A DNA stretch of 64,000 nucleotides from Acetobacteraceae bacterium H6797 (GTDB lineage: Bacteria > Pseudomonadota > Alphaproteobacteria > Acetobacterales > Acetobacteraceae). Position numbers and translations under genes: made by a program. Within the stretch, counting starts at the first letter, position 1, and each line of letters begins with the position of its first letter. The DNA is taken from positions 186,001 to 250,000 of the forward strand of contig JADFCQ010000003.1 of assembly GCA_015223225.1 (NCBI GenBank), in the 5' to 3' direction. Positions 27,463 to 58,580 of this stretch are shown piece after piece. The notes under the pieces are model-generated. The model was not told where the DNA came from and ran no database searches. It saw only the letters and a list, made by a program, of their open reading frames with translations.

Positions 27463-27559
27463 GCGTCCATCCTGGTGCTGCGATGCCGCAGCGACAAGTT
27501 GACCGCGCCGGGAATATTCCTTAGTGATATTCTTGTAATTCCCGTCCGTGTGACGTGAA

Positions 27560-27618
27560 TTGCCGCGGGGATTTGACGGATGCAGCTTGCGCCGCGTGAT
27601 CAAGTGCTAAAAGCGCCA
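27560..27618 (+). promoter_or_regulatory. SAM-II riboswitch upstream of metNIQQ
   Basis: The sequence fits the SAM-II H-type pseudoknot. P1 is CGCGG (27564-27568) pairing with CCGCG (27592-27596). The loop segment ATTTGA (27571-27576) can pair with TCAAGT (27600-27605) to make P2, exactly where the known aptamers pair AUUUA with UAAAU. The invariant downstream GCTAAAA lies at 27606-27612. SAM-II aptamers are known from alphaproteobacterial methionine genes and shut expression when SAM is high. Here it lies about 145 nt before metN, and AGGAAG directly follows the aptamer. Confidence 0.88.
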
Positions 27619-27631
27619 GGAAGCCGCGGCC

Positions 27632-27688
27632 GTGCCAGCCGCGCTTCGTGGGTCATCCGCCATGATTGGAGGACCGCGATGCGCGTGA
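27632..27688 (+). CDS. Possible leader ORF directly behind the SAM-II aptamer
   Basis: A GTG at 27632 lies eight bases after AGGAAG (27618-27623), the first ribosome-site-like sequence past the aptamer, and opens an 18-codon frame ending TGCGCGTGA. Its stop codon falls inside the next mini-ORF, so translation of the two could be coupled. The peptide (MPAALRGSSAM start) has no recognisable content. It may be chance; what supports it is position, not composition. Confidence 0.3.
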   Translation: MPAALRGSSAMIGGPRCA

Positions 27689-27714
27689 TGATGTGTACCA
27701 GCCTGCCGCTCTGA
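27679..27714 (+). CDS. Candidate methionine/cysteine-rich leader peptide MRVMMCTSLPL
   Basis: An 11-residue frame, too short for ordinary gene finding, starts at ATG 27679 with a near-perfect ribosome site GGAGGA five bases upstream, the best one in this leader. Four of 11 residues are Met or Cys (M1, M4, M5, C6). It lies between the SAM-II aptamer and metN, and three bases past its stop a GC hairpin with three Ts begins. This is the layout of an amino-acid-sensing leader peptide; that role is inference from position and composition. Confidence 0.5.
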   Translation: MRVMMCTSLPL

Positions 27715-27717
27715 ACC

Positions 27718-27735
27718 GCCGCCCTTCGCGGCTTT
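27718..27735 (+). promoter_or_regulatory. Short hairpin behind the leader peptide
   Basis: GCCGC (27718-27722) pairs with GCGGC (27728-27732) around a CCTTC loop and is followed by TTT. The stem is only five pairs and the T-run short, so it would be a weak terminator or pause site. An additional imperfect stem, 27621-27646, precedes the leader peptide. Confidence 0.35.
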
Positions 27736-27760
27736 CCGCTTCCGCCGGGATTTTCTGATC

Positions 27761-28849
27761 ATGACCGATACGCACGGGGCCGGCAGCCTGACGCCCGCCA
27801 TCCGTCTCGAGAACCTGACCCGCCGTTTCACCGGGCGCGGCGCGGAGACGCTCGCCCTCGCGGGCGTCTCGCTCGACGTCGCGCCGGGGGAGATTTTCGG
27901 CATCGTCGGCCGCTCCGGCGCCGGCAAGTCCACCCTCATCCGCACCGTGAACCTGCTGGAACGCCCCGATAGCGGGGAGGTGACGGTGCTGGGCCAGAAG
28001 ATGCTGGGCCTGGATGATGCTTCGTTGCGCGCGGCGCGGCAGCGGATCGGCATGGTCTTCCAGCATTTCAACCTGCTCTCCTCCCGCACGGTGGCGGAGA
28101 ATATCGCCTTCCCGCTGGAGATCGCGGGCGTGCCCGCGGCCGAGCGGAAGCGCCGGGTGGAGGCGCTGCTGCCGCTGGTCGGGCTCGAGGCCAAGCGGGA
28201 CGCCTATCCGGCCCAGCTTTCGGGCGGGCAGAAGCAGCGCGTGGGCATCGCGCGGGCGCTGGCCAGCGAGCCGAAGATCCTACTCTGCGACGAGGCCACC
28301 TCCGCGCTCGATCCGGAGACGACGCAGGAAATCCTCCGCCTGATCCGTGACCTGCGCGACCGGCTGGACCTCACGGTGCTGCTCATCACGCATGAAATGG
28401 CCGTGGTGAAGGAAATCTGCGATCGCGTGGCCGTCATGGAAGCCGGCGCCGTGATCGAGACCGGCACGGTCTTCGACGTCTTCACCCAGCCCGCGCATCC
28501 GACGACCCGCCGCTTCGTCGCCGAGGTCATCGGCCGCGCCGTGCCGCCCGGCACCGTCGCGGCTCTTCCGCCGCCGGATGTGGGGGAGGAGCGGCGCCTG
28601 CTCCAGGTGCTCTTCGCCGGCCCCGCCGCGACGCGCGCCGTGATCAGCGACGTCTCGCGCCGCTTCACGGTGGATCTCAACATCGTCTCCGGCCGCATCG
28701 ACGAGATTTCCGGCCGTCCCTATGGGCTCATGGCACTCGCCGCCTATGGCCAGCCCGTCGCCATCGCCTCGGCCATCGCCTATCTGCGCGAGCTGGGGCT
28801 CACCGTCACCGATATCGCCGAAAGCGCGCTGAGCGAGGAGGGCCACTGA
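27761..28849 (+). CDS. metN: Methionine ABC transporter ATP-binding protein MetN
   Basis: The 362-residue ATPase has Walker A GRSGAGKST near residues 49-57, signature LSGGQKQR near 153 and Walker B LLCDEATSALD. From about residue 285 a C-terminal NIL-type domain follows (VISDVSRRFTVDLNIVSGRID), which in MetN binds methionine and inhibits transport. It energises import of L- and D-methionine with MetI and MetQ. Its own ribosome site is weak (GGGA about 13 bases before ATG), consistent with control from the structured leader. One base separates it from metI. Confidence 0.96.
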   Translation: MTDTHGAGSLTPAIRLENLTRRFTGRGAETLALAGVSLDVAPGEIFGIVGRSGAGKSTLIRTVNLLERPDSGEVTVLGQKMLGLDDASLRAARQRIGMVFQHFNLLSSRTVAENIAFPLEIAGVPAAERKRRVEALLPLVGLEAKRDAYPAQLSGGQKQRVGIARALASEPKILLCDEATSALDPETTQEILRLIRDLRDRLDLTVLLITHEMAVVKEICDRVAVMEAGAVIETGTVFDVFTQPAHPTTRRFVAEVIGRAVPPGTVAALPPPDVGEERRLLQVLFAGPAATRAVISDVSRRFTVDLNIVSGRIDEISGRPYGLMALAAYGQPVAIASAIAYLRELGLTVTDIAESALSEEGH

Positions 28850-28850
28850 C

Positions 28851-29516
28851 ATGCTGCCCTGGCTGACCCCCACCTTGCAGGACCTGCTGATCGATGCCGC
28901 CTGGGAAACCGCGGCCATGGTCGGCGGTTCGGCGGCCATCGCCATTCTCTTCGGCCTGCCCATCGCGCTCGCGCTCTACACCACCTCCAAGGGTGGGCTC
29001 GCGCCCAATGGCTGGCTCAACCGGCCCATTGGCCTGCTGGTGAATGCGGTGCGCTCCACGCCCTTCATCATCCTGATGGTCGCCATCGTGCCCTTCACCC
29101 GTTTCGTGGCGGGCACCTCGATCGGCACGGGGGCGGCGATCGTCCCGCTCGCGCTGGCGGCCACGGCCTTCATCGCCCGGCTCTTCGAGACGGCCTTCCA
29201 GGAAGTGGATCGCGGCGTGATCGAGGCCGCGCGCGCCATGGGCGCCTCGCGGCTGCAGATCCTGACGAAGGTGCTGGTGCCCGAGGCGCTGCCGGGCCTT
29301 CTGGCCGCGATCACGGTCACGCTGGTCTCGCTCGTTTCCTTCTCCGCCATGGCGGGCGCCATCGGCGGCGGCGGGCTCGGCGATCTCGGCATCCGCTTTG
29401 GCTATCAGCGCTTCATGCCCGAGGTGATGGCGACCGTCGTGGTCATCCTCATCATCGTGGTGCAGGGGCTGCAATCGCTTGGGGATTTCCTCGTCCGGCG
29501 CGCCCGCCGCGCCTGA
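28851..29516 (+). CDS. metI: Methionine ABC transporter permease MetI
   Basis: The 221-residue permease has five predicted helices and the MetI core: NAVRSTPFIILMVAIVPFTR, the EAA loop EAARAMGASRLQILTKVLVPEALPG, and SFSAMAGAIGGGGLGDLGIRFGYQRF. It forms the channel as a dimer with MetN. It begins immediately after metN. Confidence 0.96.
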   Translation: MLPWLTPTLQDLLIDAAWETAAMVGGSAAIAILFGLPIALALYTTSKGGLAPNGWLNRPIGLLVNAVRSTPFIILMVAIVPFTRFVAGTSIGTGAAIVPLALAATAFIARLFETAFQEVDRGVIEAARAMGASRLQILTKVLVPEALPGLLAAITVTLVSLVSFSAMAGAIGGGGLGDLGIRFGYQRFMPEVMATVVVILIIVVQGLQSLGDFLVRRARRA

Positions 29517-29559
29517 AGAACACGAACACGGCTCAAAGAAACGAAAAGGGGAAGATAAG

Positions 29560-30369
29560 ATGACCAGCATTTCCCGCCGCCTGGTGCTCGGCGCAGCCCT
29601 CGCCACACCCTCCCTGGCCTTCGCGCAGAATGCCGAGATCGGCACCGCCGCCCGCCCGCTGCGCATCGGCGCGACCGCCGGCCCTCATTCCCAGGTGCTG
29701 GAGAAGGTGAAGGAGATCGCCGCGCGCGACGGTCTCGTGCTCCGCGTCACCGAGTTCACCGATTATATCACGCCCAACGCGGCGCTCGCGGCCGGCGATC
29801 TCGACGCCAATTCCTTCCAGCATCAGCCCTTCCTCGACCAGACGGTGCGCGACCGCAAGCTGCCGCTGGTCGCCATCGGCAAGACGCTGGTTTTCCCGAT
29901 GGGGCTCTATTCCAAGCGGCACAAGGCCGTGGCGGACATTCCCAATGGCGGCCGTATCGCCATTCCGAACGACCCGACCAATGGCGGCCGCGCGCTGCTG
30001 CTGCTCGCGGCCAATGGCGCCTTCAAGCTGACGCCGGGCGCCGATTTCCGCGCCACCGTCGCCGATATCACCGAGAACCCGAAGCGCCTGCGCATCGTGG
30101 AACTCGAAGCGGCGCAGCTCCCCCGCGCGCTCGACGAGGTCGAGGCCGCGACGGTCAATACCAACTACGCCATTCCGGCCGGCCTCAACCCCGTGCGCGA
30201 CGCCATCGCCATCGAGAGCGCCGACAGCCCCTACGCCAATCTCATCGCCGTGAAGCAGGGCAACGAGAATGCCCCTTGGGCCAAGCGCCTGCTCGCTGCC
30301 TATCAGAACGATGAGATCAAGACCTTCGTGCGCGACACCTTCCAGGGTGCCGTGGTTCCTGCCTTCTGA
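29560..30369 (+). CDS. metQ: Methionine-binding periplasmic protein MetQ, first copy
   Basis: The 269-residue NlpA-family receptor has a signal (TSISRRLVLGAALATPSLAFAQ) without the lipoprotein cysteine seen in enterobacterial MetQ, so it is probably soluble in the periplasm. Family motifs include PHSQVLEKVKEIA, DANSFQHQPFLD and NGGRIAIPNDPTNGGRALLLL. ATG 29560 follows AAAAGGGGAAG. It is followed after 18 nt by a second receptor of equal length. Confidence 0.94.
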   Translation: MTSISRRLVLGAALATPSLAFAQNAEIGTAARPLRIGATAGPHSQVLEKVKEIAARDGLVLRVTEFTDYITPNAALAAGDLDANSFQHQPFLDQTVRDRKLPLVAIGKTLVFPMGLYSKRHKAVADIPNGGRIAIPNDPTNGGRALLLLAANGAFKLTPGADFRATVADITENPKRLRIVELEAAQLPRALDEVEAATVNTNYAIPAGLNPVRDAIAIESADSPYANLIAVKQGNENAPWAKRLLAAYQNDEIKTFVRDTFQGAVVPAF

Positions 30370-30387: not shown

Positions 30388-31197
30388 ATGCTTCGCCGTT
30401 CCATCCTCCTCGGCGCCCTGGCGGCGCCGGCCATCCTCCGCCCCGCCTTCGCCCAGTCCGGCGAGATCGGCACCGCCGCGCGCCCGCTCCGCGTGGGCGT
30501 GACCTCGGGCGTGCATGCCCAGGTGCTCGAGAAGGTGCGCGATGCCGTGGCCCCCAAGGGCCTGGTGCTGAAGATCACCGAGTTCGGTGACTTCATCCAG
30601 CCGAATGCCGCGCTGCAATCGGGTGATATCGACATCAACGTCTATCAGCACCTGCCCTTCCTGGAGGCCCAGAAGGCCCAGCGCGGCTATGACTTCGTCG
30701 CCGTCGGCAAGACGGTGCTGACCGTCATGGCCGTCTTCAGCAAGAAGGTGAAGGCGCTGAAGGACCTGCCGAACGGCGCCCGCATCGCCATTCCGAACGA
30801 CCCCACCAACGGCGGCCGCGCCCTGCTGCTCTTCGCCCAGGCCGGCGTGATCAAGCTGACCCCGGGCGTGGATTATCGCGCGACGGTTGCCGATATCGTC
30901 GAGAACCCGAAGCGCCTGCGCGTGGTGGAGCTGGAAGCCGCGACCATCTCCCGCGCGCTGGATGACGTCGATGCCGCCGCCATCACCGGGAATTACGCCG
31001 TCCCCGCCGGGCTGAACCCGATCAAGGACGGGCTGATCGCCGAGACGGCCGACAGCGTCTATACCTGCCTCGTCGTCGTCCGCGCCAAGGACAAGGACGC
31101 CCCCTGGGCCAAGGCCCTCGCCGCGGGCTATGCCGATCCGTCGGTGAAGGAATTCGTCGATGCGAAATTCGGCGGTTCGGTGATCGTCGGCGCCTGA
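30388..31197 (+). CDS. metQ: Methionine-binding periplasmic protein MetQ, second copy
   Basis: Also 269 residues, with signal MLRRSILLGALAAPAILRPAFAQ and the same motifs (NGARIAIPNDPTNGGRALLLF, ATVADIVENPKRLRVVELEAA). It is clearly homologous along its full length to the preceding gene, so the pair is a tandem duplication. Differences cluster in the ligand region (DINVYQHLPFLE against DANSFQHQPFLD), suggesting separate ligand preferences such as L- versus D-methionine or a derivative. A terminator follows directly. Confidence 0.94.
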   Translation: MLRRSILLGALAAPAILRPAFAQSGEIGTAARPLRVGVTSGVHAQVLEKVRDAVAPKGLVLKITEFGDFIQPNAALQSGDIDINVYQHLPFLEAQKAQRGYDFVAVGKTVLTVMAVFSKKVKALKDLPNGARIAIPNDPTNGGRALLLFAQAGVIKLTPGVDYRATVADIVENPKRLRVVELEAATISRALDDVDAAAITGNYAVPAGLNPIKDGLIAETADSVYTCLVVVRAKDKDAPWAKALAAGYADPSVKEFVDAKFGGSVIVGA

Positions 31198-58387: not shown

Positions 58388-58462
58388 GCGGGCGTAGCTC
58401 AGGGGTAGAGCACAACCTTGCCAAGGTTGGGGTCGAGGGTTCGAATCCCTTCGCCCGCTCCA
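58388..58462 (+). tRNA. tRNA-Gly (anticodon GCC), first copy
   Basis: The 75-nt cloverleaf has a seven-base acceptor stem GCGGGCG/CGCCCGC, D-arm GCTC-AGGGGTA-GAGC, anticodon stem CAACC/GGTTG with loop TTGCCAA (GCC at 58420-58422), and a T-arm with GGTTCGAATCC. The CCA end is encoded. It reads GGC and GGU glycine codons. Confidence 0.97.
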
Positions 58463-58505: not shown

Positions 58506-58580
58506 GCGGGCGTAGCTCAGGGGTAGAGCACAACCTTGCCAAGGTTGGGGTCGAGGGTTCGAATCCCTTCGCCCGCTCCA
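58506..58580 (+). tRNA. tRNA-Gly (anticodon GCC), second identical copy
   Basis: It is identical in all 75 positions, including encoded CCA, to the copy 118 bases upstream, and the few bases just before both are also shared (GCGC). The 43-bp spacer contains no promoter-like element, so both are probably cut from one precursor. Confidence 0.97.

Follow-up and report, generated by a model that had tools for sequence, protein, structure and literature searches.

The window, by which we mean the whole stretch of 64,000 nt that was analysed, carries a methionine-importer operon on its plus strand, in which a SAM-II-like aptamer, a hairpin, a GGAGGA, an 11-codon open reading frame (ORF) and a 46-base spacer are followed by metN-metI-metQ-metQ (Table 1). 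In family profiles, the downstream proteins are identified as MetN, as MetI and, twice, as MetQ/NlpA; the MetN score is below the curated cut-off of TIGR02314, yet this is the best-matching family. The two metQ-like genes form a tandem pair within the operon. Elsewhere in the window, two identical tRNA genes lie in tandem at 58388-58459 and 58506-58577, with an anticodon that reads GCC (Gly) by eye.

The original prediction had placed an upstream ORF (uORF) for MRVMMCTSLPL, with its GGAGGA, between the aptamer and metNIQQ, and the coordinates were confirmed. Five bases separate the GGAGGA from the ATG, and the TGA is followed by ACC, GCCGC-CCTTC-GCGGC (27718-27732) and TTT (27733-27735). It was also correct that the best ribosome site of the leader belongs to the peptide and not to metN: the site of the uORF is strong, whereas the metN start has only a weak and distant GGGA. 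Folding of the whole metN leader against shuffled sequences showed no extra stability (z = 0.99).

Table 1. Positions in the window of the features of the metN leader and operon
Feature	Position	Strand	Basis or remark
SAM-II-like (RF00521) aptamer, divergent	27555..27631, core 27563-27617	+	cmscan 20.4 bits, gathering threshold 36
CGGATG in the 5' strand of aptamer P2; proposed to pair alternatively with 27654-27659	27577..27582	+	
Hairpin insert CCA-G-GAAGC ... GCTTC-G-TGG	27616..27651	+	closing stem common to all class A leaders folded
CATCCG, proposed switch strand: partner of 27577-27582 or lock on uORF ribosome site	27654..27659	+	
Shine-Dalgarno (SD) GGAGGA of leader peptide	27668..27673	+	sequence
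Leader peptide uORF MRVMMCTSLPL	27679..27714	+	ATG 27679, TGA 27712-27714
uORF-metN spacer with more C than G (rut-like) and with the weak 27718-27732 hairpin	27715..27760	+	
metN, methionine ABC transporter ATPase	27761..28849	+	TIGR02314 371 bits, cut-off 499.7; best family
metI permease	28851..29516	+	NF008049 over cut-off
metQ-like lipoprotein 1	29551..30369	+	TIGR00363 over cut-off
metQ-like lipoprotein 2	30388..31197	+	TIGR00363 209 bits, just below cut-off

Of the RF00521 matches given by cmscan in the stretch, the aptamer scores highest, and we call it SAM-II-like because its score is below the gathering threshold. The alignment spans all 79 positions and contains the core GAUUUGA, CUUGC and CUAAA together with the P1 hairpin; in the DNA, the core motifs GATTTGA, GCTTGC and AAG.GCTAAA are intact, and by eye UGCAGC could pair with GCU..GCG as a putative P2 pseudoknot. 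The UUU and GCUUGC/GCUAAA motifs form the ligand pocket of SAM-II. From this resemblance the window element is a putative SAM sensor. The same genome also has a canonical SAM-II of 65 bits at another place, in front of a gene that we read as metZ from its translation. In an RF00521 search of the whole genome the window site was not among the matches listed, and the best match besides the 65-bit SAM-II scored 14.4 bits.

At E 1e-80 or better, 42 of the 249 genomes of the family have a MetN relative, and a pattern search found the aptamer in four genera, namely the window's own and those labelled here g4 (4 of 15 genomes), g16 (19 of 19; this genus takes in Roseomonas sp. 18066, L004 = L147) and g24 (5 of 5, with genes other than metN following in the loci read). 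The core motifs are identical in g1, g4 and g16, and nearly all relatives found have the same core; where an RF00521 match was listed for them, it scored 17.5-21.1 bits, also below the gathering threshold of 36. Three genera, the window's own and two related genera of the Acetobacteraceae, provided 24 distinct leaders with the aptamer before metN, which are of two layouts. The 17 leaders of class A, including that of the window, have a hairpin insert whose closing stem is constant in all those folded and whose inner part is variable, and TTGGAG or TTGGGG is the SD sequence in nearly all class A relatives. The 7 leaders of class B, all of g16, are without the insert and have the ORF within about 15 bases of the aptamer. 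Covariation was looked for in the hairpin insert and the SD hairpin of class A and none was found, the pairs being nearly invariant; the insert stem varies too little to show compensatory changes. The distance from the uORF to metN ranges from 46 to about 200 nt among the leaders. Among the other metN leaders, L005, L029 and L036 (Thalassospira, alphaproteobacterial MAG) have a SAM-II-like core adjoining metN, with a terminator-like hairpin and U-run. The aptamer-less metN leaders L098, L104, L106, L102, L111 and L091 have in common ATGGCTGAYCTGC or a similar sequence some tens of bases upstream, and an Rfam scan of such leaders (L098, L104, L106, L111, L091 and L096) gave no match over threshold.

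The original prediction was to be judged by conservation of the frame and the ribosome site within the Acetobacteraceae, and it was borne out: a short Met/Cys ORF distinguishes 24 of 24 leaders from the controls. An ORF of 6-11 codons with Met or Cys beyond the start is present in all 24 metN leaders carrying the aptamer, in 0 of 21 metN leaders without it, and in 1 of 28 canonical SAM-II leaders from across the class, where it has a single Cys. To score these ORFs, the best short one starting with ATG was taken from the 140 nt that follow the aptamer, and its internal Met/Cys codons were compared with a dinucleotide-shuffle null. The mean was 2.38 in the 24 leaders versus 0.15 in the shuffles, and p was below 0.05 in 20 of 24 (0.004 for the window leader), values that overstate independence because the counts come from phylogenetically related sequences. 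Among 345 short ORFs on both strands of the window, the uORF is the sole ATG ORF of 4-15 codons that has a GGAGG-like site and at least three internal Met/Cys codons. The peptides include MTCRMPLC, MTCRMPRR, MICRMPRR, MPCRMCPC, MTCRMHRD and MTCRMRSR in class A of g16, MMCRPCRN, MMRRTCRI, MMCNTRRI and MTMCCPRRT in class B, and MRPEMCPC, MRRMMRMARRN and MRRIMRLARTG in g4; three g4 leaders have no Cys in the uORF. The enrichment in Met could partly mark alternative starts, because Met codons also serve as starts. A longer class A peptide from an earlier start (e.g. MGHPTVLEMPGV...) was considered and rejected, being out of frame in L122 and L131.

In ten aligned class A leaders, mean identity falls from 0.75 in the uORF to 0.33 in the 30 nt past its stop. 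Most close pairs differ by 0-3 bases in the uORF versus 8-19 in the following 30 bases in an ungapped count, the exceptions being L135/L136, L134/L136 and L126/L149. TGA, TAG and TAA interchange at the same stop position, and synonymous exchanges occur in place within the uORFs (CGA/CGC, TGT/TGC). Cys is encoded by TGT and TGC in a ratio of 35:17 in the uORFs of both classes, compared with 3:30 in ten genes of the window. Conservation of SLPL, like that of the Met/Cys part, had been proposed as a check; the frame and the Met/Cys codons are indeed kept, but SLPL itself is unique to the window. As in an amino-acid attenuator, a conserved short ORF carries candidate regulatory codons that match the amino acid of the operon. 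At the level of sequence comparison, it is established that the uORF is conserved, is biased towards Met/Cys and occurs together with the aptamer, and a conserved leader peptide, as opposed to a chance ORF, is well supported.

A possible link between the aptamer and the uORF lies in two hexamers. CGGATG, in the variable part of an aptamer P2 strand, and CATCCG, just before the ribosome site of the uORF, form a perfect 6-bp complement in 17 of 17 class A leaders, CGGATG being by itself a common hexamer (71 copies on both strands of the window). The pair is absent in 7 of 7 class B leaders, which have CGCATG or AGCATG in the aptamer and lack CATCCG. CATCCG lies within a predicted SD hairpin in most of class A (TCCGAC:GTTGGA; in the window TCC/CCA with TGG/GGA); in L128 and L144 another local fold is better than this hairpin. 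Pairing of CGGATG with CATCCG would be mutually exclusive with the SD hairpin and P2. Covariation speaks neither for nor against such a swap, because its strands are invariant. Since layouts with and without the hairpin insert exist in related species, the strand-swap model is directly testable.

The region after the uORF tends to be rich in C. In the 80 nt past the stop of the window uORF, C makes up 0.39 and G 0.29, and C exceeds G by at least 0.10 over this length in 21 of 24 leaders versus 14% of the 80-nt stretches of the window, which served as the reference; the C-rich stretch would fit a Rho loading region. It is lacking in three g4 leaders.

Aptamers of this kind also precede other operons. 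A second one in the same genome (G000:C1:579818, L002/L190) has 82% identity to that of the window over 54 bases and is followed by an ORF for MGMPGRCRR, and the aptamer is found before non-metN operons in g16 and g24 as well. The second operon of the window's own genome encodes a 72-aa protein, a TctC-type receptor and a luciferase-like monooxygenase, and that of L189 encodes a 72-aa protein, a SnoaL-like protein and a Cys/Met-metabolism PLP enzyme; these may be sulfur-supply operons. The 72-aa protein (SRPI...GRFVGVAV; L190:619-834, L189:480-695) is conserved as the first gene of this second aptamer class and had no match in a Pfam search. Many second-class leaders have tiny Cys ORFs (MRCRR, MCCRR, MRRCCR, MCCWG, MCCC), often along with a hairpin around the stop codon, and 5 of 22 are without a Met/Cys ATG ORF. 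Stop-centred hairpins are clear in many non-metN and some class B leaders (CGGCGC-TGA-GCGCCG, CGACGC-TGA-GCGTCG, GTCGAAA-CTAGA-TTTCGAC). As a general feature they were rejected, being absent in the window and, in class A, no better than in shuffles.

Our working model is a two-input leader in which the SAM-II-like aptamer gates a Met/Cys leader peptide and the peptide controls metN, a reading that we favour while rating it somewhat short of probable. With SAM bound, P2 would take the CGGATG strand, leaving CATCCG free for the hairpin that hides the GGAGGA, and the leader peptide would stay untranslated; without SAM, CGGATG would pair with CATCCG and the ribosome site would open. When Met- or Cys-tRNA is scarce, the ribosome would pause at the Met/Cys codons and cover the C-rich stretch downstream, keeping Rho, the probable opponent of metN readthrough, off the RNA, so that metNIQQ is transcribed. 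When these amino acids are plentiful, the ribosome would finish the uORF and leave, and Rho would end transcription. By this logic metN would be expressed only when low SAM coincides with a shortage of Met/Cys. We infer that the leader peptide is translated, that SAM is bound, that the strands swap, that the ribosome stalls and that Rho acts, and dual sensing of SAM and Met/Cys may be taken as a reasonable model. In general terms, a SAM riboswitch acting on the start of a Met/Cys leader peptide would be an AND gate for SAM and aminoacyl-tRNA within one RNA, with a related Cys-only version before the sulfur-type operons of the same genomes; this too we propose tentatively, at a little under an even chance.

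Alternatively, the aptamer might gate the uORF, and uORF translation might feed metN by coupling, through termination-reinitiation or opened RNA, with no sensing of charging. Such coupling would agree with the strong uORF site beside the weak metN site, with the riboswitch-controlled uORF that is needed for downstream expression in M. tuberculosis (PMC11260477), and with S. meliloti metA, where the SD of SAM-II works from a distance (PMC9373788). It leaves unexplained, however, why Met/Cys and the rare TGT codons persist where other residues are replaced, and the uORF-metN distance is variable; we consider it unlikely, though deserving serious weight. That the aptamer alone controls metN, with the uORF as a by-product of conserved RNA structure, appears improbable: the aptamer (0.98 identity) and the SD region (0.84) are indeed the best-conserved parts of the leader, but the Met/Cys codons of class A fall mainly in one frame (27/82 versus 10/82 and 1/70), the stops interchange, and the same kind of peptide is kept in two different layouts.

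Classical attenuation by amino acids through an intrinsic terminator is the least likely of these readings. The original prediction had noted the GCCGC/GCGGC hairpin with TTT after the uORF, which is present in the window, where a second GCCGC, within the uORF, could be a rival partner for GCGGC; but it is weak, with five pairs and three T, and it lies where identity has already dropped. No conserved intrinsic terminator was found after the uORF among the leaders, and a terminator-like site occurs within 140 nt after the uORF in 1 of 42, a non-metN one. An attenuator of this type is unlikely because the hairpin is not conserved, and we rejected it. The ligand, on the other hand, might be other than SAM, such as SAH or a sulfur metabolite, and the logic of the uORF may then stay the same. 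The scores of 17-21 bits, compared with 65 bits for the SAM-II before the metZ-like gene of the same genome, would allow this, but the pocket motifs UUU and GCUUGC/GCUAAA are unchanged, and we give such a ligand a low probability.

If the two-input model is true, this leader would be a natural case of two measurements in series, a metabolite being sensed by the RNA and its amino-acid precursors by the stalling of ribosomes, and Roseomonas-like bacteria may assess SAM as well as the supply of amino acids before the importer is made. We know of no riboswitch that accompanies the polycysteine short ORFs of mycobacteria. A literature search, with subscription papers mostly outside its scope, found no paper pairing SAM-II with a Met/Cys leader peptide. 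In a 2014 survey SAM_alpha was confined to Rhizobiales and Rhodobacterales (PMC4239095), so the Acetobacteraceae regulon, with metN and sulfur-type operons as targets, appears undescribed in the literature searched. The pairing had been thought unfamiliar; with a SAM-II-like aptamer it is real before metN in three genera, but partial precedents exist (PMC11260477, PMC9373788). In S. meliloti metA, SAM-II exerts control at a distance, AUG1 is in frame with metA and unused, and AUG1 and AUG2 have a terminator between them (PMC9373788). The present leader resembles that one in its aptamer type, in a ribosome site that adjoins the aptamer and in a start codon that precedes the one actually used by a good distance; unlike it, the metN leader has a separate, stop-terminated Met/Cys ORF, with no conserved terminator after it. 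Thalassospira (L029, L036) likewise has a SAM-II-like core directly before metN, but with a plain terminator-like hairpin and U-run, and no Met/Cys uORF was noticed there.

The B12 riboswitches of M. tuberculosis ppe2 and metE also combine a riboswitch with a uORF, which is translated there and sets downstream expression; they differ in ligand and in belonging to an actinobacterium, and no link of the uORF codons to the amino acid of the pathway is reported in the abstract (PMC11260477). The polycysteine short ORF attenuators of mycobacteria (Canestrari et al. 2020, as cited in PMC9094748) resemble our leaders in that a very short ORF upstream contains Cys codons. They are leaderless according to the title of that study. 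The window ORF starts about 120 nt after the aptamer start and has its own SD, and the metN peptides mix Met and Cys. The window peptide has one Cys, several being found only in some other leaders, and it is the second class (MCCRR, MRRCCR, MCCC) that resembles the mycobacterial ORFs.
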